NCBI GenBank assembly: GCA_947259355.1
Contig: CAMYMF010000017.1
Coordinates: 1 to 44,062 of the forward strand
Reading direction: 5' to 3'
Source of the DNA: an uncultured Nitrospirota bacterium
GTDB lineage: Bacteria; CG2-30-53-67
DNA: 44,062 bases
Made by a program: the position numbers and the translations under genes. The notes beneath the pieces were generated by a model, which was given only the letters and a program-made list of their open reading frames with translations, was not told the origin of the DNA and made no database searches. Of this stretch, positions 2,770 to 44,062 are shown piece by piece; the first letter of the stretch is position 1, and each line of letters opens with the position of its first letter.

Positions 2770-4440
2770 TCACATCGTCACCGGCGCCGAAACACCGAGC
2801 AGGGTCAACCCGTTTCGAATCACCGTCCGTACCCTTCCGATGAGGAAGAGCCTCGCCTGGGAGAGCTCTCTGTCGTCTGAGATGATCCGGTGTTTGAAGT
2901 AGTAAGCATGTAAGCGGGTTGCCAGTTCCTGCAAATAAAACGGAATGCGGTGCGGCTCCATTGCCATGGCCGCACCTTCCACAACCTCGGGGAAAGTCGC
3001 CAGATATTTCATCAGATCGATTTCTTCAGGCAGCGCGAGCCGCTCCATGGTGACGTCCTCGGCAGCCGGCACGGACAGCCCCCGCTCCTCGGCCTGCCGG
3101 AAGACACTGCAGATGCGCGCATGGGCATACTGCACATAATAGACGGGGTTCTCATTGCTCTGGGTCTTGGCCAGGTCCAGATCGAAGTCGAGATGAGAAT
3201 CGGAGCGACGCAGCAGAAAGAAATACCGGGCCACGTCATTGCCCACCTCATCGAGGACCTCCGAGAGCGTCACGAATTCACCGCTGCGCTTTCCCATCCG
3301 GACCGGTTTGCCGTCTCGCAATAGATTGACCATCTGAATGAGCACCACCCGCAGCGCGTCCGCGTCATGCCCCAAAGCTTGTACAGCGCTTTTCATCCTC
3401 GGGACATAGCCGTGATGGTCGGCACCCCACAGATTGACCAGTTGCTCAAAGCCCCGAGCAAATTTGTCGCGATGATAAGCAATATCCGAGGCGAAGTAGG
3501 TTGGGTCCCCGTCACCCTTGATCAAAACCCGGTCTTTGTCGTCTCCCAGGGTGGAGGTCCGCAGCAGCAGTGCCCCGTTCTCTTCCCGGAAGAGAAGCGC
3601 CTTGGCATCCAGCTCTGCAATACATGCCTGGACTTTTTCATCCCGATAGAGAGCCTTCTCCGAAAAGAAGCTGTCAAAGCGAATCTCCATGCGGTCCAGG
3701 TCGGCCCGAATTCCCGCCAGGATTCGCTCGGCGGCGAATTCCGATAAACGCTCGACAGCCTCCGCTTCGTCCATCCCGAGGTATTGGTCGGCATCACGCC
3801 GCTGGAGAGCCTTGGCGATGTCGATCACATACTCTCCGGGATACCCATCCTCATCCGGAAAGGGCACCGAACCGTCGAAGAGCTGCCGGTACCGGATCCA
3901 GACGGAGCAGCCCAACGTGCGGAGCTGCCGACCGGCATCATTGACATAGAACTCCCGGTGGACGGCAAATCCCGCGGCCTCCAAGAGGCGGGCCAGCGCA
4001 TCCCCCACGACCGCCCCGCGACCATGCCCGATGTGTAATGGTCCCGTGGGATTGGCGCTTACAAACTCGATCAGCACCCGCCTCCCCTTCCCGAGATTGG
4101 AGCGCCCGTAGGCCTCTCCCGCAGCGTCGATCTCCTTCAGGGTCCGCAGCCAATAGTCTTCCCGGAGGTAGAAATTGATGAAACCCGGACCGGCGATTTC
4201 GCACCGCGCGATGATCCCGTCGAGATCCGAAATATGATCGATGAGCGTCTTGGCGATCTCCCGGGGGGGCCGCTTCACCGTACCCGAGAGGACCATGGCC
4301 AGGTTGGTGGCAAAATCGCCGAAGCTGGCATCTTTCGGTACGTCGAGCTGTATGGGCGGGACCGTCTTGACGGCAAGACTCCCGTCCCGGCATGCTCTAT
4401 CCAACGAATCGTTCAGCAGGTCCGTCAGTGTCTCTTTCAA
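2770..4440 (-). CDS. argS: arginyl-tRNA synthetase
   Basis: Class I aminoacyl-tRNA synthetase of 556 residues, full length for ArgRS. It charges tRNA-Arg with arginine in the cytoplasm. Visible marks are the Arg-tRNA-synthetase N domain (DFATNLAM, near 42-49), the signature SANPTGPLHIGHGRGAVVGD at 128-147 carrying HIGH, the degenerate KMSKS-equivalent MGKRSG at 382-387, and a DALR anticodon-binding tail with the ArgRS ending LLGVSAPVTM. The start codon is TTG at 4440 with AAGGAAGG just upstream; no in-frame ATG fits the family N terminus better. A SPOR gene follows directly. Confidence 0.96.
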   Translation of the reverse strand: MKETLTDLLNDSLDRACRDGSLAVKTVPPIQLDVPKDASFGDFATNLAMVLSGTVKRPPREIAKTLIDHISDLDGIIARCEIAGPGFINFYLREDYWLRTLKEIDAAGEAYGRSNLGKGRRVLIEFVSANPTGPLHIGHGRGAVVGDALARLLEAAGFAVHREFYVNDAGRQLRTLGCSVWIRYRQLFDGSVPFPDEDGYPGEYVIDIAKALQRRDADQYLGMDEAEAVERLSEFAAERILAGIRADLDRMEIRFDSFFSEKALYRDEKVQACIAELDAKALLFREENGALLLRTSTLGDDKDRVLIKGDGDPTYFASDIAYHRDKFARGFEQLVNLWGADHHGYVPRMKSAVQALGHDADALRVVLIQMVNLLRDGKPVRMGKRSGEFVTLSEVLDEVGNDVARYFFLLRRSDSHLDFDLDLAKTQSNENPVYYVQYAHARICSVFRQAEERGLSVPAAEDVTMERLALPEEIDLMKYLATFPEVVEGAAMAMEPHRIPFYLQELATRLHAYYFKHRIISDDRELSQARLFLIGRVRTVIRNGLTLLGVSAPVTM

Positions 4441-4609
4441 TAAAGCCTTCCTTCTGGTAATCGCGCGGGTCCCCTGCCCAGGAAGCCCGGCTCGCGTGCA
4501 AACAGGCCGTTTTCCCGGAGCCGCGACTCGCTGCCATGAACCAAACGTTTATTATAGCAACACATGAATGACTGTCAAACAAAAAGACTCGCGCCTGGAT
4601 TTCAGTTTT

Positions 4610-5362
4610 CTACAGAATTTTCAATAACTTGTGAATCTGTGGAAGGATTCGCACCGTTCGGAGGCGCCCTCGGGCCTCGCTTTGGAGGGAAAAGAGTCTC
4701 TCCCGCCAGCCGGCCGTTTCCCAGGTACCGTGGACCGGCTGCAGGATCAGGGGCAAGCCGACATCGGTCTCGACCAGAAGATCTACCAGCTGCCGGAACT
4801 CCGCGTCTGCCAGAGCAGGACCCACGGTGGCTTTTACGCAAAGGAGCTTGTCACGGGCGACACCGAGAAATCGTCGATGTCGATCCCAGTCGCGAGGCTG
4901 GCCCGTCGCCGAGGGGAGTTTGATATCCATGGAGATCCAGTCGAGCTGCGGGAGCAGGGGCGTCACTTCCGCAGCCAAGGTTCCGTTGGTCTCCAGGAAA
5001 ACGGGCAGCGTGTCGCCCACGGCCGGCAGAAAGGCCGCGAGAAATCCGTGGTGCAACAGTGGCTCGCCGCCGGTGAGCGCCAGTGAATGGTAGCGGCGTG
5101 AAGGTTCCGGCTCCGCCCGGACGAGCGCCAGCAATGCTTCAACGGAGAGCGGATTGGGCCGTTCGGTGAAGAGGCCTGAGCCCGGGAAGGTCTCGACACG
5201 GCACGGTCCGGTGGGTGTCCGGGCCGCTTCGGTGTCGCAGTAGTCGCAGGCCAGATTGCAGCCGTAGAATCGGAGAAACAGCTGGGGCTCTCCGGCGAGC
5301 GGCCCCTCGCCCTGAATGGAGGAGAAGAGCTCCATCACGTGGGCGCTGAGAGAAGACATCAT
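4610..5362 (-). CDS. queE: 7-carboxy-7-deazaguanine synthase QueE
   Basis: Radical SAM enzyme that contracts 6-carboxy-tetrahydropterin to 7-carboxy-7-deazaguanine, the precursor of preQ0 and queuosine. The 250-residue product has FSSIQGEGPLAGEPQLFLRF near the start, the cluster motif C35-x3-C39-x2-C42 (GCNLACDYCD), and a GGEPLLH motif for SAM binding. The longer reading frame reaching 5446 is rejected because tandem ATG codons at 5362 and 5359 sit where the homologous N terminus begins. The first ATG overlaps the TGA of the upstream DUF366 gene as ATGA, which points to translational coupling of the two. Confidence 0.93.
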   Translation of the reverse strand: MMSSLSAHVMELFSSIQGEGPLAGEPQLFLRFYGCNLACDYCDTEAARTPTGPCRVETFPGSGLFTERPNPLSVEALLALVRAEPEPSRRYHSLALTGGEPLLHHGFLAAFLPAVGDTLPVFLETNGTLAAEVTPLLPQLDWISMDIKLPSATGQPRDWDRHRRFLGVARDKLLCVKATVGPALADAEFRQLVDLLVETDVGLPLILQPVHGTWETAGWRERLFSLQSEARGRLRTVRILPQIHKLLKIL

Positions 5363-32115: not shown

Positions 32116-32566
32116 AGTAGACTCCTCCCCTCAGCGTGTTTAGCAGCGCAATGTGATCCATCAGCCTTGTCAGATGACCCAGACTCTACCGCAAAAACGA
32201 ACTCCCCTCAAGCGCAGGGGTTGGCACACCGGACCGCTTTCACGCGCAGCGGTCAGAAGGTATCCCCCAGGGTCACAAAATTTCCTTACCAAGACCCGAG
32301 CATTTTTCCATTCGGCCCGGCGCTGCCTGAGCGGATACCGTTGGCCTTTGGCCCACCGATGAAGACTCCCCGTTGTCTCTTCTCGCGTGGGTATCTCCTT
32401 CGACCGTTTCCCAAGATCGCTTATCATCCTTCGCCCGTCGGACTCAGCTCACCTATGCTCGCGCGGCGCCTTGACGGTCTCACAGAGCCTCATAGAATGT
32501 ACATCAGTGAAAAAACGAGACTGGAATCAGGGACGGATGCCCCTGGATGGGTGGGCATGGGGGGAC
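32116..32566. other. divergent gap without clear features
   Basis: This 451-base stretch separates the SDR gene (minus) from the phospholipase D gene (plus). The plus-strand frame of the latter is open back to 32387 but the sequence there does not resemble the family. I see no convincing promoter, RNA or repeat. Confidence 0.5.
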
Positions 32567-34657
32567 ATGAGAACCTCTCGCATCTTGCAACCTGGACAGA
32601 ATTGCTGGCGTCTTTCGCCGGCAAGCCGCGCCGCATTCCTCATTGACAGGGAGAATTACTTCTCCGCATTCCGAGCTGCCGTCAAAGAGGCAAGACACTC
32701 TATTTTCATTCTCGGCTGGGATATGGACAGCCGGGTAAGACTTGAACGAAATGGCCGGAATGACGGCTACCCTTCAGAATTGGGGAAATTCCTAAATGCC
32801 GCCGTGGGGCGATCGAAGGGAGTGCACGCCTACATTCTCATTTGGGATTTTGCCATGGTCTATGCGCTGGAGAGGGAATGGTTCTCCATCTACAAACTGG
32901 ATTGGCGGACCCATCGCCGGATCCGGTTTTGCCTGGATGGCGATCACCCGCCCGGAGCTTCACACCATCAGAAAGTTGTCGTCATCGATGACCGTATCGC
33001 CTTTGTGGGAGGTTTTGACTTGAGCAAGTGGCGCTGGGATACCCGCGCACACAAAGCTGATGATCCACGGCGGGTGGATCCGGACGGCGCTGCCTACCCA
33101 CCCTTCCACGACGTACAGCTGTTGGTCGAGGGGCAAGCGGCCGCAGATCTCGGAGAATTGTTCCGAGGCCGGTGGTCGCAGGCCACGGGACGACACATCA
33201 GGGCGAGTGTTGACCAAGCGGCGGATCCCTGGCCTGCCGAGGTCTCAGCCGATCTGCAAGATATCAAAGTTGCCATCGCCCGCACACAGCCTGCCCACAA
33301 GAATCTGAAGGCCTGCCGGGAAGTGGAGCGGCTCTATACCGATATGATTGCGGCCGCGAAGCGGTCCATCTATCTGGAGAATCAATATTTCACGTCTAAG
33401 AAAGTCGGCGAATCCATTTCGAAGCGGCTTCAAGAGAAAGACGGTCCGGAGATCATCCTGGTTCTGCCGCTGAAAACGGGGGGCTGGCTGGAACAAAACA
33501 CCATGGATGCCATGCGGACCAGTCTGCTCAAGGGGCTTCAGGAAGCGGACACCCATCACCGGCTTCGCGTCTACTACCCCAGCCGGGAAGGGCTTGGGGA
33601 TCAGTGCATCAGCGTGCACGGCAAGGTCATGGTGATCGATGACCGCGTGGTGCGCGTCGGGTCCTCCAACCTGAGCAATCGATCCATGGGGCTGGACACG
33701 GAGTGTGATCTCGCGATGGAAGCCGATGCCAGTACCAGCGAATCACAAGCAATCGCCGCTTTCCGAAACTCCCTTCTTGGGGAGCATCTCGGCGTGGAGC
33801 CTCAACGGGTGCACGACATCATGAATCAGCCCGGTTCCCTGACGCGCACCATCGAAGAACTCCAGGGAGGATCCAAACCCCTTGGCGAACTGAAGCTGTC
33901 CACATCCAGCTCGATTGAATGGGAGATACCGGAGGCTGAATTGGCGGATTCGGAACGACCGCTTGATCCCGAATCCCTGATGGAATACTTCGTACCCCAA
34001 AAGGAGCAACGGACAACACTGCACCGCGTCATCGTGTTGGTGGCGGTGATCCTTCTGGTGATTCTCATGGCGGGACTCTGGCACTGGTCCCCCCTTGGCG
34101 AATGGCTGACCGTTGACCGGCTCAATGATCTAATCTTACAAGCCCGCCAAAGTGCTTGGACTCCCGTAATCGTGCTGGGCGGCTATCTTCTGGGTGGTCT
34201 CATGGCTTTGCCAGTCACCCTCATGGTCGCGGCGACGGCGCTTGCCATGGGACCGCTGGCCGGTTCTCTCTACTCCTTTGCCGGTACCTTGTCAAGCGCC
34301 CTGCTTACTTTCGGCATCGGGCATCTCCTCGGCCGGAATGCCATGCGCCGGCTCCCGGGTTCCACTCTGAACCGGATCAGCCGCCGCCTCGCCGACCGCG
34401 GCCTGGTCACGGTCATCACGTTCCGGTTGCTCCCGGTCGCCCCCTTCATCGTGATTAACCTGGTCGCGGGGGCGTCCCATCTGCGGTGGCGCGATTATCT
34501 CGTCGGCTCGGCCATCGGCCTGGCTCCCGGCGTTCTGGCCGTCTCTCTGCTGACAGACCGGTTGTCAGAAACGTTGCAGCAACCGAGCGTTACAAACATG
34601 ATTATTCTGGTGGCCATAGCCCTGCTGGTGGCCGGCCTGTTGATATGGCTGGTTTAA
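32567..34657 (+). CDS. phospholipase D-like protein fused to a VTT membrane domain
   Basis: A 696-residue fusion. The first two thirds are a phospholipase D superfamily enzyme with two HKD motifs: H134, K136, D141 (HHQKVVVIDD) and H351, K353, D358 (HGKVMVIDD), each followed by the usual Gly/Ser-Asn signature. A membrane helix near 485-507 leads into a TVP38/TMEM64-type VTT domain with several helices (LGGYLLGGLMALPVTLMVAA and FRLLPVAPFIVINLVAGASH). Such fusions are thought to act on phospholipids, like cardiolipin synthases; the substrate is unproven. The ATG at 32567 is preceded by a G-rich site and matches the start of homologues; an upstream ATG at 32537 is possible. The next gene, 34 bases on, is its usual partner. 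Confidence 0.88.
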   Translation: MRTSRILQPGQNCWRLSPASRAAFLIDRENYFSAFRAAVKEARHSIFILGWDMDSRVRLERNGRNDGYPSELGKFLNAAVGRSKGVHAYILIWDFAMVYALEREWFSIYKLDWRTHRRIRFCLDGDHPPGASHHQKVVVIDDRIAFVGGFDLSKWRWDTRAHKADDPRRVDPDGAAYPPFHDVQLLVEGQAAADLGELFRGRWSQATGRHIRASVDQAADPWPAEVSADLQDIKVAIARTQPAHKNLKACREVERLYTDMIAAAKRSIYLENQYFTSKKVGESISKRLQEKDGPEIILVLPLKTGGWLEQNTMDAMRTSLLKGLQEADTHHRLRVYYPSREGLGDQCISVHGKVMVIDDRVVRVGSSNLSNRSMGLDTECDLAMEADASTSESQAIAAFRNSLLGEHLGVEPQRVHDIMNQPGSLTRTIEELQGGSKPLGELKLSTSSSIEWEIPEAELADSERPLDPESLMEYFVPQKEQRTTLHRVIVLVAVILLVILMAGLWHWSPLGEWLTVDRLNDLILQARQSAWTPVIVLGGYLLGGLMALPVTLMVAATALAMGPLAGSLYSFAGTLSSALLTFGIGHLLGRNAMRRLPGSTLNRISRRLADRGLVTVITFRLLPVAPFIVINLVAGASHLRWRDYLVGSAIGLAPGVLAVSLLTDRLSETLQQPSVTNMIILVAIALLVAGLLIWLV

Positions 34658-34691
34658 TTTGTGAACAGACGATCGTCTCACGCGCGCAAGA

Positions 34692-35459
34692 ATGAAACGA
34701 GAACAACGGGCCAAAGCGCCTAAGCCGTCAACGCCACTAATCGTTGCCACCTATAACATTCATCGATGCATGGGTCGTGACGGTCAGAGAAATCCTGAAC
34801 GCATTGCTCGGGTCGTCCACGAGACAGGAGCCACCCTTGTTGCCCTGCAGGAAGTGGAATCCTTTTTCGACGGAGACATGGGCCGCGACCAGCTGGAGTT
34901 CCTCTCCCAAGCCACAGGACTTCACGCCGTGCCCGGCCCCACCATTCTTCGCTCTGATTGTCACTACGGCAATGCGCTGCTCACTCGTGCCCCCTGCATC
35001 CATTTACGCCACCATGATCTGAGTATCCCAGGTTGTGAGCCCCGCGGCGCCATGGATGCAGACCTGGATATTGCCGGAGGGCCTCTCCGTGTCATCGCGA
35101 CCCATTGGGGGATTCGTGCCTGGGAGCGGGACCGCCAAGCAGCGCGGCTTCTGAAAATCCTCTCGAAAACAAACGCGAAACCAACCGTGCTACTCGGGGA
35201 CTTCAATGAATGGTTTTATTATCGACCCTCCATCAGGAAAATAAAGAAACTGTTTGCGAAGAATCCGGGCCTTCCAACGTATCCGAGTCGATGGCCCCTT
35301 CTGGCACTGGATCGCATTGGGTGTTTGCCGCAGGAAATGCTCGTGGAGGCCACGGTGCACCGCTCACCCCTTGCGAAAACCGCGTCCGATCATCTTCCGC
35401 TGGTGGCAAGACTGGATCTGACCCGCGCGCTTGGGCCCTATTCCAAAAGTGCCAACTGA
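34692..35459 (+). CDS. endonuclease/exonuclease/phosphatase family protein
   Basis: A 255-residue enzyme of the DNase I/exonuclease III/inositol-phosphatase fold. Seen are ATYNIHRCMGRDG with the metal-region Asn, LQEVE with the metal-binding Glu, THWGIRAWERDRQ with the catalytic His, LLGDFNEW with the Asp/Asn pair, and the closing SDHLPLVARLDL with the final His. No signal peptide. Its position right behind the PLD-VTT gene matches a frequent pair in proteobacteria and suggests lipid or phosphodiester metabolism at the membrane over DNA repair; this is inference. Confidence 0.88.
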   Translation: MKREQRAKAPKPSTPLIVATYNIHRCMGRDGQRNPERIARVVHETGATLVALQEVESFFDGDMGRDQLEFLSQATGLHAVPGPTILRSDCHYGNALLTRAPCIHLRHHDLSIPGCEPRGAMDADLDIAGGPLRVIATHWGIRAWERDRQAARLLKILSKTNAKPTVLLGDFNEWFYYRPSIRKIKKLFAKNPGLPTYPSRWPLLALDRIGCLPQEMLVEATVHRSPLAKTASDHLPLVARLDLTRALGPYSKSAN

Positions 35460-36525: not shown

Positions 36526-37430
36526 GCCCGTGCACTCTTCGCGATGCTTCTTCTGCTGTCGGGATTTGCCGGAATCTCCTATGAGATCCTCTACGGCAGG
36601 ATGTTGGGCAACCTCATCGGCGACCAATGGGCCGTTAGCGCTTCCATCCTGCTCACCTTTCTTATAGGTATCGGTGTCGGCAGTCTTTCAACTCTGGATG
36701 CTCAAGATCGCCGAGTTTATCGTCGGGTGCTTTCGAGAAACCTTTGCACTCGTGCTCGGCCTCGTTCTCCTGGACATTGCAGCCGGAACGGCTCTGACCC
36801 GCCGTTTCCGGCTCGGCTTCATCCATGTGATGCTCGCAAACCTTGTAGGGCTGGTTTGGCTCATGGGGCCCTCCAGCCGATCACGGCCCTCTACGTCTCG
36901 CTCTATTCGCCGGCTGCGTAGTCCCATCTTCTCACCGTGCTACTCAAGCTGGGCGCCTTGGCGGCGCTCATGGGCGTGCCGGCCCTCTCTTTCGGCGCCA
37001 CCATTCCGGCGCTGATCACGACCGAGGACAATGTGGCCCGCGAATCGGGCCAGCTCCTCTTTGTCTCATCATTGGCCAATGCCGCGGGTTACCTGCTGAT
37101 GGTCTTCGTCCTGCACGAGCATCTCGATTATAGACCGATCCTCCTGTTAGTGGCGGCCGTGAGCACGCTGGCCCTGCTGCTCTATTGGAAAGGACGGAAA
37201 GGCGTTTGGCTCGGCGCGCCGGACTGTACGCGGGGGCCCTCATGGTAGTACACGCCACTCTTTGGAACGAGCAGCTCCTCTACCTGAGCCACACAGCCTT
37301 TCACTCACCGGCAAAGCTCGCCCAAGCCGGGGAGCAAGTCCGGTTTCAGGAACCTTTCAAGGGACGGCAGGATGTTTTTGCGCTCTAGAAGCTCAAGAAG
37401 GGGGGGACGCTTTTTTTCATCAACGGCTAA
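36526..37430 (+). pseudogene. broken spermidine-synthase-family membrane protein gene
   Basis: Three plus-strand frames in succession encode pieces of one polytopic protein. The first gives LLLLSGFAGISYEILYGRML and VSASILLTFLIGIGVGSL. A second gives FIVGCFRETFALVLGLVLLD. The third gives GALAALMGVPALSFGATIPA then LLFVSSLANAAGYLLMVFVL. A later segment reads VVHATLWNEQLLYLSHTAF and ends at an in-frame TAG (37386-37388), but recognisable coding continues to a TAA at 37428. The first part is typical of membrane-embedded spermidine/spermine synthase family proteins; the soluble synthase domain is missing. Several frameshifts and stops make this a pseudogene. Confidence 0.75.
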
Positions 37431-37517: not shown

Positions 37518-38492
37518 TTACCGCTCGGTCTCCAAACATTTCTTGTAAAGCCTATCAACAACTTCGCCCGGAATTGCATGCTCGTCGTTATGCTCTTCCA
37601 GAAATCTTAAACTATCCGCATAAAGATTGAGACCAGGCGTCGCATCACTGATGAGCTGTAGATACAGCGCTTGTGCTATGTTAGGTGAGTTAGAACTAAA
37701 TTCCGCCTTGACTTCTGCAAGTTGGTTTCTTATGTTGTCCGATTCTTCGGCGCTTAAGACAATAAAGTGATATTTGTCGGAAACTATTTTGTTGCCATCT
37801 TGTGTTTCCACAAACCATTCATAGGATTTACCTGCCTTGAGGGGAGCCTTTACCTCAACTAGTGCACCTATCCTAATATTCTCAACAATATTTCTCTTTG
37901 GCATTACACCTGTAGTCTTAATTACCAATCTGGCTGGAGTGCATGATGAAACATCAATCCCCTGCCATCTAAAAAATATGGGTTCTCCGCTCAGTACTGT
38001 ACTGCCCTCCAAGGGCCATGGTGAAACAATAAATGGTTGGGCAGGAAAGCATGAAATGTCCTGAATACCCCGGAGTGTAATGTTCTTCGTAGCTAGAAGC
38101 TCCTTACGCTTCACCTTTTGATCCAAGAACCTGGATGCGTTATCCTTAAGAACTGATAAAAATCCTCCGGCACTCTTATACTCAGCTGGATTACAGTTGA
38201 CCTTTGTCTTTTTGTTTACTTCCTGCTCACCACAACCAGTATGAATGTAGATTAATTTCACATCTTTGCCTTTAACGGGTATGATTTCATCATTGTTCAT
38301 TACTCTCATATCATGAGAAAGTGGCTTGACAGGCTTGCCGTCCCGTAAGAGGCGATAGCACTCTTCTGGCTCAGCCACTGACGAGACCTTAACAATGGCC
38401 ACATACGAGGTCGGCTCAACGGCAAATGCAGCGATTTCAGGAAAACCCAAGAAAAGTCCAATGACAAACACAAAGAATATAAATCGTATCAT
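37518..38492 (-). CDS. secreted protein of the CHASE2 operon, unknown (DUF928/FecR-like context)
   Basis: A 324-residue exported protein with a signal peptide (FIFFVFVIGLFLGFPEIAAFA, cleavage near residue 24). The next ~100 residues (ECYRLLRDGKPVKPLSHDMR, then NDEIIPVKGKDVKLIY) resemble the small beta domain in FecR or DUF928-type proteins that appear with CHASE2 genes. A middle Ig-like part includes WPLEGSTVLSGEPIFFRWQG and YEWFVETQDG; the C terminus is helical. The ATG at 38492 overlaps the CHASE2 stop (ATGA). Base composition is more AT-rich than the neighbours. I cannot name the family firmly; a periplasmic ligand- or partner-binding role beside CHASE2 is inferred. Confidence 0.75.
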   Translation of the reverse strand: MIRFIFFVFVIGLFLGFPEIAAFAVEPTSYVAIVKVSSVAEPEECYRLLRDGKPVKPLSHDMRVMNNDEIIPVKGKDVKLIYIHTGCGEQEVNKKTKVNCNPAEYKSAGGFLSVLKDNASRFLDQKVKRKELLATKNITLRGIQDISCFPAQPFIVSPWPLEGSTVLSGEPIFFRWQGIDVSSCTPARLVIKTTGVMPKRNIVENIRIGALVEVKAPLKAGKSYEWFVETQDGNKIVSDKYHFIVLSAEESDNIRNQLAEVKAEFSSNSPNIAQALYLQLISDATPGLNLYADSLRFLEEHNDEHAIPGEVVDRLYKKCLETER

Positions 38493-39985
38493 GCCGCTTT
38501 CTCCTTCCTCTTTTTCCACCATTCTTTCACGCTCTCTTCTGCATCAGCGATGTTTTGATGAATCCCAATCCCCAAAATAGGTAGCCAGAAATCTATAAAT
38601 AACCCATATTTGCTAAACAACAAAACGCTGATTGGGGTTGTCGCAATTAGAAGAAACATAATAAGTACAGCTGCAGCAAAGAAAGATGATAACTGCATAA
38701 AGAACACGGCGACAAAGTAAATGATTACGCTTTCAATTAATATCCTTAACAGTAAGGACGGTTCATGTATTTGAAGTTTCTCCAATATAAGATTGATTCC
38801 GTTTGCAATCAAAAAAACACCTGACATCTCCCCCAAGGGAGTTGGATGCAGGTCACCCATATCGGGATTGGTGGATCCTATTAGAACCGCTTTGCCCTCA
38901 TAGCTCCTCGCTTTTTTGGCATCTTTATCCAACAAGACAGCCGGGGTTATCATCAGATCATGATATTTGAGCAAAGGGTCTTCACACTCGATACAAATTT
39001 CTTTGGTCAACTCTCTCGGGGCCAGGCGGAAGATATACCTGGCGGCCGCGCCACCATGTCTCTCTTTAGTGTGGGCGTATATTTTTAAATCGGAACCCCT
39101 GCTACCCCTAGGGGCAGGGATCACGAGCTGATGACCTCCATTACGCACTTTCTTTTCTGCATCTCTAATTATCCTATCTCCATCTGATTCTCCATACCAT
39201 AAATAAATCGATGATAGTATATGAATTGAAAATAACAAATTTCCGTCTTCGCCGACGGGCTCATAGAAACCAAAGTGACGCACCTGATAATCAGATGGAT
39301 CGCGAAATACTTCAGGGCTACCTAGCTTTAGTACATCGTTGTTCTCAACAAGCATCCTGCTTAAATGACGCGTATATGAATCTGTAGACGGCTTCTCTCC
39401 CGTCCAAGGAAGGATGATTACTGATCCTTGTTTCCTCGCCACCTTAATTGCTGTGCTGAGCAGATTGAGAAATATTTCATTCTCATCAACACAATTCCCC
39501 TGTTCGCAGTAAATTGGCATAGGCCTATCGATGGCAAAATCGACTACAACAACTTTTGCTCCAAGCTGAATTGCTTTGACTATACACCGACCAAGTAATT
39601 CTCTCGGAGTCCAGAATCCGCGGCTAGGACTTGCATCATAAGTTTCTCTATCGAGTACCACAAGGCGGATCTTATCAGAGATGGGGCTTATATTCTTTTC
39701 TGTGCTCCGCGCAATTGCCTGCTGGAAGTCTTTCATCACCAGAAAGTCGTAAGCATCATTAATAGCTGTTTGGCCAATACTCGTGTATTGGGCAAAGTGA
39801 AGGACAATCACGACAACAATGCCCCAGAAAACATTGAGAGCAAAGTTAAAACGCTGTCTCGATGACCAACGCTTCCAGGAAAAGAAATCAACAGGTAGAA
39901 TTCTGAGCGCGAGCCTTCCAATACTTCTAAGGATGGCAAGAACTATCTCACGAAACTTGCTTATGAGCTCATTCTTAAATACCAT
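38489..39985 (-). CDS. CHASE2-domain membrane protein without output domain
   Basis: A 498-residue protein: cytoplasmic basic N terminus, membrane helix near 50-68, an extracytoplasmic CHASE2 sensor domain (IGQTAINDAYDFLVMKDFQQ, IRLVVLDRETYD, FWTPRELLGRCIVKAIQLGA, VVVVDFAID, GKAVLIGSTNPDMGDLHPTP, GEMSGVFLIANGINLIL) and three closely spaced C-terminal helices. After the last helix only about 20 residues (ESVKEWWKKRKEKAA) follow, so the usual cyclase, kinase or GGDEF output is absent. Such stand-alone CHASE2 proteins often accompany CHAT-domain and secreted proteins. Here the start lies inside the 3' end of a decayed CHAT gene and its stop overlaps the secreted-protein start. Base composition is relatively AT-rich. 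Confidence 0.9.
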   Translation of the reverse strand: MVFKNELISKFREIVLAILRSIGRLALRILPVDFFSWKRWSSRQRFNFALNVFWGIVVVIVLHFAQYTSIGQTAINDAYDFLVMKDFQQAIARSTEKNISPISDKIRLVVLDRETYDASPSRGFWTPRELLGRCIVKAIQLGAKVVVVDFAIDRPMPIYCEQGNCVDENEIFLNLLSTAIKVARKQGSVIILPWTGEKPSTDSYTRHLSRMLVENNDVLKLGSPEVFRDPSDYQVRHFGFYEPVGEDGNLLFSIHILSSIYLWYGESDGDRIIRDAEKKVRNGGHQLVIPAPRGSRGSDLKIYAHTKERHGGAAARYIFRLAPRELTKEICIECEDPLLKYHDLMITPAVLLDKDAKKARSYEGKAVLIGSTNPDMGDLHPTPLGEMSGVFLIANGINLILEKLQIHEPSLLLRILIESVIIYFVAVFFMQLSSFFAAAVLIMFLLIATTPISVLLFSKYGLFIDFWLPILGIGIHQNIADAEESVKEWWKKRKEKAA

Positions 39986-40290
39986 CCTTCATTCCTCTGG
40001 CCGGACTTATGAGCATATTTTGCGTCACCGAAAACGACCATGGGGTACAGAAGAAAGGATGACGGAAAAGATCCCCCTCCTCACCCCGGATCATCTGCAA
40101 CTTGCTCTCCCGAAGAGCCTCGCCTTTGTTCATCCCGGCTATTAAATTCCGGCAGAGGCCCGTGCTCAACCTTTTTATTGAACTGGATTCAACAGACCAG
40201 AGCGTGACGGAAATGGCCGATGTGCCAGCATACCATGAAGACACGGGTCAGGCCGATGATGCCCTCTCCCTTGCATTCTTCGCCGCTTCA
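39961..40290 (-). pseudogene. CHAT-domain (caspase-like) protein, decayed C-terminal remnant
   Basis: Three minus-strand frames together spell the end of a CHAT domain: GEGIIGLTRVFM, a shift, then YAGTSAISVTLWSVESSSIK, RNLIAGMNKGEALRESKLQM and RHPFF, then another shift and PMVVFGDAKYAHKSGQR to a TAA at 39963-39961. Canonical CHAT ends have LWSV, MGKAEALRxAQL and HPYYWAPFVLIGD in this order. The N-terminal catalytic half (His and Cys) is missing, cut near 40300. The remnant still overlaps the CHASE2 start by 25 bases, so the ancestral order CHAT-CHASE2-secreted protein can be read. At least two frameshifts make it non-functional. Confidence 0.8.
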
Positions 40291-40387
40291 TCCCGCCGTC
40301 CACGCTCTCAACTCAGGCAAAAAAATTGTTTGATTTGTAGGTCATGATACTGGTATTTTGGCTTTGGATAGGATTTTGGCAAACCAC

Positions 40388-40420
40388 AGGTCGTCGGTTC
40401 GATCCCGATCAGCTCCACCA
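40388..40420 (+). other. tRNA 3'-end fragment (attachment-site-like)
   Basis: The sequence has a T stem and loop, GTCGG-TTCGATC-CCGAT, then the 3' acceptor strand CAGCTCC, discriminator A and encoded CCA. It most resembles the end of tRNA-Ala. The 5' half (acceptor strand, D arm, anticodon arm) is not present in the bases upstream, so this is not a tRNA gene. Such 3' ends are the usual integrase crossover sites of genomic islands. Confidence 0.8.
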
Positions 40421-40426
40421 AGTATA

Positions 40427-40564
40427 TCAAGGAGTTAGCCAATTGAGGTTAGCTCCTTTTTTGGTGGATTGTGCAGTAATTGTATAGTTGGTAGCCTTTT
40501 TCATTCGCTCGAAGGCGAGACGCAGGCCGCCGGCCACCGACATATACGCACCGAGTAGCGGCAC
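40427..40564 (-). pseudogene. nfo: endonuclease IV (nfo) 5' fragment
   Basis: From GTG at 40564 the minus strand reads PLLGAYMSVAGGLRLAFERM then KKA, the start of endonuclease IV (typically PLLGAHMSIAGGL). After codon 24 (about 40493) the match ends and the frame runs through the tRNA terminator to a stop at 40427. No further part of the gene is seen. The GTG follows the caspase-gene TAA by three bases and lacks a ribosome site, so the fragment appears cut on both sides by recombination. In endonuclease IV the second position of AHMS is a metal-binding His; here it is Tyr. Confidence 0.7.
40431..40462 (+). terminator. rho-independent terminator behind tRNA fragment
   Basis: GGAGTTAGCC, loop AATTGA, GGTTAGCTCC, then six T. 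All ten stem pairs form, two of them G-T. It sits ten bases after the CCA end, as expected for the original tRNA terminator, showing that the chromosomal side of the tRNA end has been kept. Confidence 0.85.
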
Positions 40565-40567
40565 TTG

Positions 40568-43123
40568 TTAATTACCCATGGTGGCACTGAGCTTATAAGG
40601 TGTCACCGAACGTTTGTCATTATGACCGTCGCGTACTTCGATATAGTAATTTCCAGCAGCGGGTATTGCTACCTCTCCCTTTGTTTCACCGCCCGTTCGC
40701 AGGGGCACCAGCCAGCCGCTGATTGCCTTCTTCTCGTTATTAAAAATTCGTGCCGACATTTCAAGATCAGCCGGGGAGTCGGTGATATGTACGGTGAGGC
40801 TACCAGGTCGGTTGGTTGAAATACGGTACCAGTCCGCATCGCCTTTTGGCAGGATGGTTCCGGAAACGACAGCGCCCAGTTTCAGAGGCACTGCAGAACC
40901 GAAACTATTATTGGGCTCACCCCGGTCATTGGTCGGAGTATAGGTTGCGCGCAGAGAATAGGGATCAATGGACCTGACATCGTTATGGCTATCGCGCACC
41001 TCAAGTATATAACTACCGGCCGTCGGCAGATCAATCACCGCCTCGGTATCGCCTCCGGGTTTCAAGGGACCAAACCAACCGGTCATGGCTCCTTTATCTT
41101 CGTTCCACACCCGAAAGTTAATTTCCATTTTTGCAGGAACATTGTTGAAAAGCACCTTGAGCTCTCCCTGCTCATCAACACCAAGCCGGTACCAATCCGA
41201 ATCTCCCTTGGGCAGGATTGTCGCCTGAACCGTCTCGCTGATAGCAAGCGGTGTGGATCTGCCAAAGGAGTTGTTATTTCCGAATCGGTCGACACTGGGT
41301 TTATAGGTAAGAGTCGTGAGAAAGGGTTGGGCCGATCGATTGTCATTGTGCCCGTCACGTACCTCAATTACATAAAGTCCAGGCCCGGGCAGATCCACCA
41401 CCGCCTCGGTATCACCACCTGCCTTAAGGGGCGGGATCCAGCCGGAAATTGCTCCCTTGTCACCGTTCCATACCCTGATACCGAGATCAAGATTCTTAGG
41501 GACCTCGGTTATCAGAACGGTCAGTTCTCCATGGCGGTCAACGGAAATCCTGTACCAGTCGGAATCCCCTTTGGGCAGAATCGTGGAACGCCAGGATGTT
41601 CCAGGCGTAACCGTTGCAGCGAAACCAAAACTATTATTGGGTTCATAAGCATCCTTGGTGGGAGTAAACACCTGGTTGAGAGAATATTGTTGACTGGACC
41701 CAACATCGTTGTGGCTGTCGCGCACCTCAACAAAATAGTTACCTGGTCCGGCCAGGTCGACTACCCCGGTGGTTTCCCCGCCTTTTCGCAGAGGAGCAAT
41801 CAAACCGGAAATAGCTGAATATTCATGATTCCATACCCGGAAAACCAGATCCTGCTCCGCCGCGACATTGCTGATAGTGATACCAAGCGCACCCTGCTGT
41901 CTGACGGCAAGATGATACCAGTCGACATCACCCTTTGGATTGATACTGCCGCCGATCACCGCCGTAGCTTGAGTATGATTGGCGGTGCCAATGGAATTAT
42001 TGGGCTCATGCTCCTTGGTACGCACTGAACGCACAGCCACTTGAGGAGGGGAAACAGTTGCTGATAGCGATTTTCCGCCCGGAATTATATCAGCTTTTTT
42101 TGCAACCATTTCCTTCCCCACCGGTTCCGGCTCCTTGACAAGTTCCTGAGCTTGCGCTTCAGGCTCAGGCGCTTGAGGCTCCGTGTCACCTTTCAGGGCG
42201 CGAAGCTTATTTTCCGCAAGCCCGGCAAAAACACCATCAGGAAACTGGCGCTGGTACTCCTCGAAATCCTCGGCAGACTCACTGCCCTTGATGGACTGCC
42301 AGAAGAGAGTCTCCTTGTCTATAGCGGCCAGCGACACAGGAAGTTTGGGAGCTTGAGCCTTTTCCGAACGGGTTTGGGAAAAATAAAAATCCCCGGTCAA
42401 AGATGATGCCTCCCAGGGCACCTGACTGTTTTGCGTATCAGCCATCACCCGGCGGCGGACAATTTTAAACATCTGCTCCACTTGGAGATCACTCTGCTGC
42501 ATTGCCTCTGCCAATGCTTGAGAATAGGGACTGTTGGCGCCATCACCGTCCCTCGCAACATCACCGGGCGCCGTAGCATAGGCTATTAGGGTGCCGCGAG
42601 GGGCGTCCATTCGGGCAAGGCCCCTCACCGCGGAGCGAAAACTTCTGGCAAAGGGGTTGTTACGGCAGGCATCCATGATCACGAAGTTTATCCTGGTCCG
42701 GGCATAATCGAGAACCCGGAGGATATGATTGGCATTGACCGCCTCGATGTCCACGTCCCGCTCCCGCTCTATGGCAGCGTTTACTGGAATCAGATAATTC
42801 TCTCCATTGACCTGAATGCCATGACCCGCGTAGTAAAAAAGACCCACCGCTTCCCTGCCCACTTCATCAAGCTTGTCCCCGAAATCCTGAATCGCCCGCT
42901 TCATGGACTTCTGATCAATATCGGTATATTCCATGACTTCAAAATCGAGTTTCTGCAAAGTCTCAGCGACCAGACGGGCATCATTGACCGGGTTTTTCAG
43001 GGGGGAATCCTTATAGGCGTTGTTGCCGATAACAAGAGCAACACGGGGAGGAGCGGAATAGGCGTGGAATGATATTGTGATTACGAACAAAATCATCAAG
43101 CACAGACAAAGCGATTGTTTCAT
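40568..43123 (-). CDS. secreted caspase-domain (C14) protein with four PPC-like repeats
   Basis: An 851-residue exported protein. A signal peptide (cleavage near residue 23-24) is followed by a caspase-like peptidase domain at about 25-248 with the catalytic dyad H101 (FYYAGHGI) and C153 (VIMDACRNNPF). Residues 265-312 form a short helical segment (FEEYQRQFPDGVFAGLAENK) common behind such domains. A Pro/Glu-rich linker leads to four beta-sandwich repeats starting near 373, 494, 616 and 736, each with EPNNSFG-like start, PKGDxDWYR, a RVWN strand, PLxxGGxT and YxxEVRDxHND. The catalytic pair is intact, so proteolysis after a basic residue is plausible by family. The repeats may bind substrate or ligand outside the membrane. 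Composition differs from the housekeeping genes. Confidence 0.92.
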   Translation of the reverse strand: MKQSLCLCLMILFVITISFHAYSAPPRVALVIGNNAYKDSPLKNPVNDARLVAETLQKLDFEVMEYTDIDQKSMKRAIQDFGDKLDEVGREAVGLFYYAGHGIQVNGENYLIPVNAAIERERDVDIEAVNANHILRVLDYARTRINFVIMDACRNNPFARSFRSAVRGLARMDAPRGTLIAYATAPGDVARDGDGANSPYSQALAEAMQQSDLQVEQMFKIVRRRVMADTQNSQVPWEASSLTGDFYFSQTRSEKAQAPKLPVSLAAIDKETLFWQSIKGSESAEDFEEYQRQFPDGVFAGLAENKLRALKGDTEPQAPEPEAQAQELVKEPEPVGKEMVAKKADIIPGGKSLSATVSPPQVAVRSVRTKEHEPNNSIGTANHTQATAVIGGSINPKGDVDWYHLAVRQQGALGITISNVAAEQDLVFRVWNHEYSAISGLIAPLRKGGETTGVVDLAGPGNYFVEVRDSHNDVGSSQQYSLNQVFTPTKDAYEPNNSFGFAATVTPGTSWRSTILPKGDSDWYRISVDRHGELTVLITEVPKNLDLGIRVWNGDKGAISGWIPPLKAGGDTEAVVDLPGPGLYVIEVRDGHNDNRSAQPFLTTLTYKPSVDRFGNNNSFGRSTPLAISETVQATILPKGDSDWYRLGVDEQGELKVLFNNVPAKMEINFRVWNEDKGAMTGWFGPLKPGGDTEAVIDLPTAGSYILEVRDSHNDVRSIDPYSLRATYTPTNDRGEPNNSFGSAVPLKLGAVVSGTILPKGDADWYRISTNRPGSLTVHITDSPADLEMSARIFNNEKKAISGWLVPLRTGGETKGEVAIPAAGNYYIEVRDGHNDKRSVTPYKLSATMGN

Positions 43124-43125
43124 CG

Positions 43126-43335
43126 TTGACCCTCCGAAGTTTCTTATCAGACACCCCTGTGCTACTGCTTGCGCTTGAGAGCATTAAATCCTGCCTGCAA
43201 AAAGTGGTGGTCTGTTGTCAGGGCATCTGTGATGAAATGATCATCCATTATGAAAAGCGATTAAAACAGCATTCCGACGGTGAAATTGAGATTCCTGATG
43301 TTTCTGATTATAGCCCCGACGCATTCCATCTCTAA
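43126..43335 (+). CDS. possible small ORF between caspase and hydrolase genes
   Basis: A 69-codon plus-strand frame in the 248-base gap reads plausibly in its second half (SIKSCLQKVVVCCQGICDEM, HYEKRLKQHSDGEIEIPDVS), with ordinary codon choice. It might be a fragment of a longer gene. It has no clear ribosome site and overlaps the putative caspase promoter, so it may be chance. Confidence 0.25.
   Translation: MTLRSFLSDTPVLLLALESIKSCLQKVVVCCQGICDEMIIHYEKRLKQHSDGEIEIPDVSDYSPDAFHL
43307..43312 (-). promoter_or_regulatory. possible -10 element for the caspase gene
   Basis: A perfect TATAAT lies on the minus strand about 180 bases before the caspase ATG. The -35 region 17 bases away (TTAGAG) is poor, so the call is weak; the caspase gene may instead be read from the hydrolase upstream. 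Confidence 0.3.
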
Positions 43336-43371
43336 CCGGGCGGGAGTCTACAGAAAAAATATGGGAGGTGC

Positions 43372-44062
43372 TTATTTCAGCTGCCAGTACTTAATCCCTC
43401 TAAACTCTTTCGGTGCCAGGTCACGGTTTAAAGGCTTCTTATTCCTAAGCACTGATATTAGGTCCTTTATTACCCGTCTTTTGCTTGCGTAGTAGGAATG
43501 ACCATCCGGCAGACTCCATGGGGCGACATCTATATCGGCAACATCAACTGTATCGAAACCGTTTGCAACCGAGACGGGTTTACCAAGGCGTTTGGCCGAA
43601 CGGAACCAGCCAGAGAGATCAAGCGCTAAATCCTTATCAGAGGTATACAGTGTCCAATTTTTAGATAATGAACGAATATGGGGCGCTATCTGCTCTGTGA
43701 AAAGCCGGGTATCAAAGTCCGGTGCAGCCATGATAACAGTATCGAACAATGGCTTGGTTTTCTCCCCCTGCTGCAATGCAATACGGTATAATGCACGCAG
43801 TAAGCCTTGATTGCCCATGCTATGCGCAATCAGGTGTAACCGTTTTGCCTTGGTTTGCTCCCTGAGGCTCGCAAGAAACTTCTCTATATAAAGCACACTC
43901 CACTCTACATCAATTCGGTCAGAAAAATACGACGGCACGCTTCCGTTTGAAGGCCAGGAGAAGAAAATAGCCGCTCCTTTAAAACCGATATCGTAGGCGA
44001 TCTGTGCTGTACGACGCGCTGCTTTATCAAAAGTTACGTTATAGCCGTGAACAAAAACAAAG
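43372..44062 (-). CDS. DUF900-family alpha/beta hydrolase, 5' end outside window
   Basis: The visible 229 codons are a DUF900 (PF05990) alpha/beta hydrolase. Seen are the oxyanion strand FVFVHGYNVTFDKAARRTAQ, IFFSWPSNG, the nucleophile Ser in LHLIAHSMGN, MAAPDFD with an acidic residue, and the likely catalytic His in PDGHSYYAS. The reading frame is open to the right edge, so the true start (and any signal or lipoprotein peptide) is missing. It is on the same strand as the caspase gene, 248 bases upstream. Proteins of this family are often encoded near CHASE2 and caspase or CHAT genes; the substrate is unknown. Confidence 0.88.
   Translation of the reverse strand, partial: FVFVHGYNVTFDKAARRTAQIAYDIGFKGAAIFFSWPSNGSVPSYFSDRIDVEWSVLYIEKFLASLREQTKAKRLHLIAHSMGNQGLLRALYRIALQQGEKTKPLFDTVIMAAPDFDTRLFTEQIAPHIRSLSKNWTLYTSDKDLALDLSGWFRSAKRLGKPVSVANGFDTVDVADIDVAPWSLPDGHSYYASKRRVIKDLISVLRNKKPLNRDLAPKEFRGIKYWQLK

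Follow-up and report, generated by a model that had tools for sequence, protein, structure and literature searches.

A probable mosaic of acquired genes at a Nitrospirota contig end: an apparently protease-dead CHAT-CHASE2-exported-partner operon beside a C14 caspase and a DUF900 hydrolase

The right-hand ~6.5 kb (positions 37518-44062) of a contig from an uncultured Nitrospirota bacterium carries five described genes, all on the minus strand, that include members of the CHAT, CHASE2, Peptidase C14 and DUF900 families. The window analyzed here is the whole of that contig (C17; 44,062 bp), one of 94 in a draft genome assembly of 3,115,654 bases that is ~90% complete. Read from the contig end inward, the genes are those of a DUF900 alpha/beta hydrolase, a C14 protein with PPC repeats, a CHAT fragment, a CHASE2 membrane protein and a signal-peptide protein, and the domain matches of the described genes are far beyond chance. 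An earlier note on this DNA had proposed that they form a single envelope-facing module. The analysis described below indicates that they are probably not one system, and that the contig instead ends on the right in a mosaic of separately acquired genes, in which a broken CHAT-CHASE2-partner operon (set 1, 37518-40285) lies beside a caspase and a hydrolase (set 2).

The CHAT gene of set 1 is a pseudogene fragment (39975-40285, minus strand) whose match to the Pfam CHAT model (E=2.8e-10) is confined to profile positions 219-280. It is the C-terminal part of the domain, downstream of the catalytic residues; the N-terminus is gone, the His and Cys regions are both absent, and there is a frameshift near 40235. 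No second CHAT match was found anywhere in the ~90% complete assembly, so this fragment is its sole one. Upstream of 40286 one frame gives LRAW in place of LSAC, which would suggest a mutated CHAT active site, but we reject this reading, since that DNA belongs to a dispersed repeat (below). The fragment overlaps the start of the CHASE2 gene by 11 bases (ATGGTATTTAA). The 498-amino-acid CHASE2 protein (38489-39985, minus strand; Pfam CHASE2 E=2.8e-16) has membrane stretches at its N-terminal and C-terminal ends; only a short tail follows the last of these, and there is no output domain. Its gene is joined in turn, by an ATGA overlap at 38492-38489, to that of the exported partner, a protein with a signal peptide (37518-38492, minus strand); an alternative, longer open reading frame that starts at 38522 would bury the signal peptide. 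The CHASE2 and partner frames are both intact. The gene order CHAT, CHASE2, signal-peptide protein and the tight coupling (11-base and 4-base overlaps) are those of an operon from which the intact CHAT protease, with its His and Cys, is missing, and as judged from these sequence features set 1 is the protease-dead 3' remainder of such a CHAT, CHASE2 and exported-partner operon. The earlier note had correctly described the decayed CHAT gene that overlaps the CHASE2 start, the CHASE2 protein without an output domain and the ATGA coupling. Its proposal that two caspase-like folds act together here is not sustained, because the only CHAT sequence in the assembly has lost its catalytic residues.

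The exported partner belongs to no Pfam, NCBIfam or PADLOC family, and a low-confidence structure prediction made without an alignment (mean predicted local distance difference test score, pLDDT, of 42) gives it a putative beta-rich middle and helical C-terminus. Protein and profile searches with CHASE2 in 386 genomes across the domain returned only CHASE2 proteins with an output domain of the cyclase, GGDEF or HD-GYP type, and the alignments fell at the C-terminus of CHASE2.

A dispersed repeat and a scrap of a tRNA-Ala gene sit exactly between set 1 and set 2. The CHAT homology ends exactly at the start of the repeat (40286-40392), which is 79-81% identical to copies in a genus mate (G001, locus L011) and in a family member (G002, locus L015). 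The repeat runs into the 3' end of a tRNA-Ala(GGC) gene and its terminator (40388-40462, plus strand; tRNA match 40388-40420, hairpin 40429-40458), and this tRNA end with its flank is 85% identical over 86 bases to G002 (locus L010). No intact tRNA was found in the window. Of the marks of a tRNA-borne integrative element, the window thus has a tRNA 3' end, whereas the intact tRNA copy expected at the other end is not in it. A second tRNA-Ala 3' end lies ~290 bases from an intact tRNA-Ala gene both on another contig of the home genome (C19, locus L018) and in genome G003 (locus L017), as if the tRNA-Ala 3' end were a recurrent insertion point.

On the other side of this junction, the paracaspase-like C14 protein of set 2 (40568-43123, minus strand; Pfam Peptidase_C14 E=1.2e-42) has the caspase domain with catalytic His and Cys of Peptidase C14 orthocaspases and paracaspases (His101 in AGHG and Cys153 in DAC, both intact), four GDxDWY/PPC repeats (at residues 398, 519, 640 and 761) and a hydrophobic signal-like stretch at its N-terminus. 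It thus looks exported, and the secreted caspase with an intact dyad and four repeats that had been reported from the sequence is indeed present. The closest solved structure to it, by sequence, is the MALT1 paracaspase, and it is the only C14 match in the ~90% complete assembly. The DUF900 hydrolase, likewise reported previously (43372-44061, minus strand; E=3.1e-45), has an HSMG nucleophile elbow, and its 5' end is cut off by the contig end. The gap between these two genes (43124-43371) contains a plus-strand frame of 69 amino acids (LTLRSFLSDTPVLL...) with no convincing family match. A 45-amino-acid reading after the caspase stop (40440-40571, minus strand; VPLLGAYMSVAGGLRLAFERMKKA...) resembles, on visual inspection, the beginning of endonuclease IV (Nfo); database searches gave no support for this, and we do not claim the identity.

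The guanine plus cytosine (GC) content is 43% in the CHASE2 and exported-partner genes, 52% in the C14 gene and 46% in the DUF900 gene, and it is 61% in the first 36.5 kb of the contig. Tetranucleotide correlation with the contig falls from 0.85 to 0.55-0.58 in both gene sets, and the base composition of set 1 differs from that of set 2. In genus and family relatives CHASE2 and C14 have no match; for C14 there are weak repeat-region matches only, in two genomes of the same class. Because their composition is deviant and these relatives have no CHASE2 or C14 match, the terminal 6.5 kb looks foreign and both gene sets look acquired. Among the PADLOC defense-system models there was a partial caspase match for C14 only (model positions 5-130 of 453), and none for the other genes.

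Are the same genes found together in other genomes? A plasmid tblastn search with the window CHASE2 and partner proteins gave no match at standard thresholds. The informative plasmid loci were recovered at a relaxed threshold, and the weight placed on them comes from domain content and gene order, not from E-value. Plasmid pAB510a of Azospirillum sp. B510 (locus L028) has CHAT, CHASE2 and signal-peptide protein genes in the order and orientation of the window: a full-length CHAT (E=1.2e-60) that has a lipobox-like stretch (LLTAC) at its N-terminus, a standalone CHASE2 (E=8.6e-11) and then a 306-amino-acid signal-peptide protein. The cyanobacterial sample consists of nine plasmid CHASE2 loci, in eight of which a DUF928 protein lies directly 3' of CHASE2; in the ninth (L071) DUF928 is nearby but upstream. 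The N-terminal module carried by the CHASE2 protein is CHAT in seven of the nine, an AAA domain in one and nothing in one. Separate CHAT genes are present in loci L027, L072, L076 and L078, and those checked (L072, L076 and L078) encode proteins with signal-peptide-like N-terminal stretches. Two-partner-secretion (TPS) or ShlB genes are present in L072, L073, L074, L075 and L078. In the last of these, from Planktothrix, CHASE2 is fused to an AAA-like domain and not to CHAT (2864-5182), and a DUF928 gene and a CHAT gene with a signal-like start still follow, which suggests that the N-terminal module of CHASE2 proteins is exchangeable.

The relatives of the set 2 proteins have other neighbors. 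CHASE2, CHAT or DUF900 was beside none of the C14 relatives at the seven loci inspected, where the neighbors are OmpA, DUF4384/ExbD/TolQ, asparaginase, FHA or other genes, and CHASE2, CHAT or C14 was beside none of the DUF900 relatives at the three loci inspected, where they are plasmid or mobile-element genes or genes without an assigned function. Co-occurrence of the four families, the check set beforehand in the earlier note, was thus seen in none of these neighborhoods. Three Rhodobacterales plasmids (L068, L084 and L086) repeat an OmpA / caspase / DUF4384 / ExbD / ExbD / TolQ-ExbB cluster beside partition genes, possibly an envelope-linked caspase locus of its own. A Ruegeria conchae plasmid (L070) has three caspase-family genes within ~8 kb, with a filamentous-hemagglutinin-type exoprotein gene directly upstream of the first.

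Two plus-strand regions of the window to the left of the five genes were also read by eye. At the left edge of the foreign stretch, 36544-37248 holds overlapping broken frames of membrane/spermidine-synthase type that look decayed, and 32387-35459 holds a phospholipase D-like protein that also has a membrane part like DedA/TVP38, and after it a protein of endonuclease/exonuclease/phosphatase type.

How should the two gene sets be interpreted together? The envelope-facing module proposed earlier survives in part, in that the CHAT/CHASE2/exported-protein unit recurs in Azospirillum and cyanobacteria, but its joining to C14-PPC and DUF900 was found in 0 of 10 neighborhoods. It is very unlikely that a single envelope-facing signaling and protease system is made up of CHAT, CHASE2, the exported protein, C14-PPC and DUF900. 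In its favor, the genes lie in one 6.5-kb stretch on one strand, none of them looks native to the host, fusions of C14 to CHASE2 are known from Trichodesmium (PMC3501461), and CHASE2 is borne on EACC2-caspase proteins in the EACC2 systems (PMC8195603). Against it, the CHAT here is dead, the inspected relatives do not show the linkage, and the repeat and tRNA-Ala scrap between the halves, together with their different GC contents, indicate that the halves arrived separately, which is the other ground on which the earlier note would have given up its module. That the exported C14 has stepped in for the lost CHAT, as the protease of the CHASE2/partner pair, is just as improbable. The C14 protein is intact, looks exported and is the sole remaining caspase-fold enzyme in the assembly; its gene is the next one upstream of the CHAT remnant and shares its strand, and the CHASE2 and partner frames have been kept open. 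Against this, no inspected relative pairs C14 with CHASE2 and the partner, a terminator hairpin and the tRNA scrap intervene, and the open frames may merely reflect recent loss of CHAT. The junction is also unlikely to be an assembly or binning artefact that has attached 4-6.5 kb of another genome, as might be supposed of a region of deviant composition at a contig end in a draft of 94 contigs, because the repeat and the tRNA-Ala end with its terminator are specific to this bacterial family and the junction therefore carries native sequence.

A mosaic of separately acquired genes is thus the reading we prefer, and the following points weigh against it or against the operon ancestry proposed for set 1. 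Since all of the genes point the same way, transcription could read through from the caspase gene. The window and Azospirillum CHASE2 proteins are only ~25% identical, the two exported partners have marginal pairwise similarity (E=0.003), and a single proteobacterial locus with the exact order of the window was found. The window partner fails the DUF928 (PF06051) Pfam model, and profile comparison with DUF928 gives a weak match only. The C14 and DUF900 neighborhood samples are small and plasmid-derived. Scans of genome collections with CHASE2, as a single sequence or a two-row alignment, gave no confirmed relative, which says little about absence given that such poorly conserved peptides were the probes, and the genome samples searched seem to be without Pseudomonadota (the best matches to E. 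coli 16S are 80%), which leaves room for linkage of all the families elsewhere.

What might the intact operon do? In the intact relatives CHASE2 would be an inner-membrane protein whose sensor domain faces outward, where it may sense something external; the exported partner may bind CHASE2 or the protease in the periplasm and relay the signal; and the CHAT protease, exported or lipid-anchored where it is a separate gene, would then be activated and cut envelope or surface proteins. In cyanobacteria the substrate is perhaps the adjoining two-partner-secretion exoprotein, and such proteins are plausible CHAT substrates because TPS genes are linked to CHAT in these loci. In the genome studied here at most a sensor/partner pair would be left, because the CHAT protease has been lost. 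The exported C14 protein of set 2, from its domain content and signal-like N-terminus, most probably has its protein substrates in the periplasm or outside the cell, and the DUF900 hydrolase would be unrelated to it. A broader idea, which is possible but which we regard as doubtful, is that units of CHAT, CHASE2 and exported partner make up a class of envelope protease systems not described before. In such a system an outside-facing CHASE2 would be the receptor and would, together with a periplasmic partner, control an exported CHAT protease that trims surface exoproteins, in cyanobacteria those of two-partner secretion, and the window would hold a protease-dead remnant of one.

For this window the outcome is mostly a correction, in that the four-family cluster resolves, in all probability, into two separately arrived neighbors, one of them broken. 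The remaining lead is the recurrence, in Azospirillum and cyanobacteria, of a CHAT caspase-fold protease with an outside-facing CHASE2 and an exported partner. Discussion of CHAT proteins has mostly been of cytoplasmic proteases that act in cell death or are linked to CRISPR, and an exported, receptor-controlled CHAT would, if true, be a different use of the caspase fold. The CRISPR-linked protease role is described in PMC9729208. Within the literature searched the CHAT-CHASE2-partner unit has passing mentions only (PMC8195603 and PMC5587647, the latter mentioning a CHASE2/DUF928 neighborhood in Nostoc punctiforme). The unit is real and thinly described, and an exported CHAT under CHASE2 control is a modest lead.

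Several known systems can be set beside these genes. In the LapD/LapG system a membrane sensor governs the release of a surface adhesin by controlling the periplasmic cysteine protease that trims it; the likeness would be one of working only, as we claim no homology and both the protease fold and the sensor domain differ. The window C14 protein is 45-48% identical over residues 9-313 to exported caspases of the alphaproteobacteria Leisingera and Phaeobacter, with the dyad intact, but these matches stop near residue 313, beyond which the window protein adds its four C-terminal PPC repeats, and the alphaproteobacterial genes have OmpA, DUF4384 and ExbD/TolQ neighbors. The EACC2-caspase-CHASE2 conflict systems, with their extracytoplasmic function (ECF) sigma factor and DUF1822 (Kaur et al. 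2021, PMC8195603), similarly join a caspase-fold protease to a CHASE2 receptor as the proposed sensor. Unlike theirs, the window CHASE2 protein holds CHASE2 only and lacks the EACC2/caspase module at its N-terminus; the five genes that fill the minus strand of 37518-44062 have no ECF sigma or DUF1822 domain and leave no room for such genes, as far as the view extends to the contig end at 44062. The cyanobacterial DUF1822 - CHAT-CHASE2 - DUF928 loci share with the window a CHAT and CHASE2 followed by a small protein, mostly with a signal-like start; they differ in that CHAT is usually fused to CHASE2, in that the partner is DUF928, which the window partner is not by Pfam, and in having sigma-factor-like, DUF1822 and TPS genes that are absent from the window. 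The Azospirillum sp. B510 operon differs in its full-length, lipoprotein-like CHAT, in an outer-membrane-barrel-like gene upstream and in its ~20-25% identity to the window, but it matches the window in its three genes and in their order and orientation, and it likewise has a standalone CHASE2 without an output domain and an exported last gene product of similar length.

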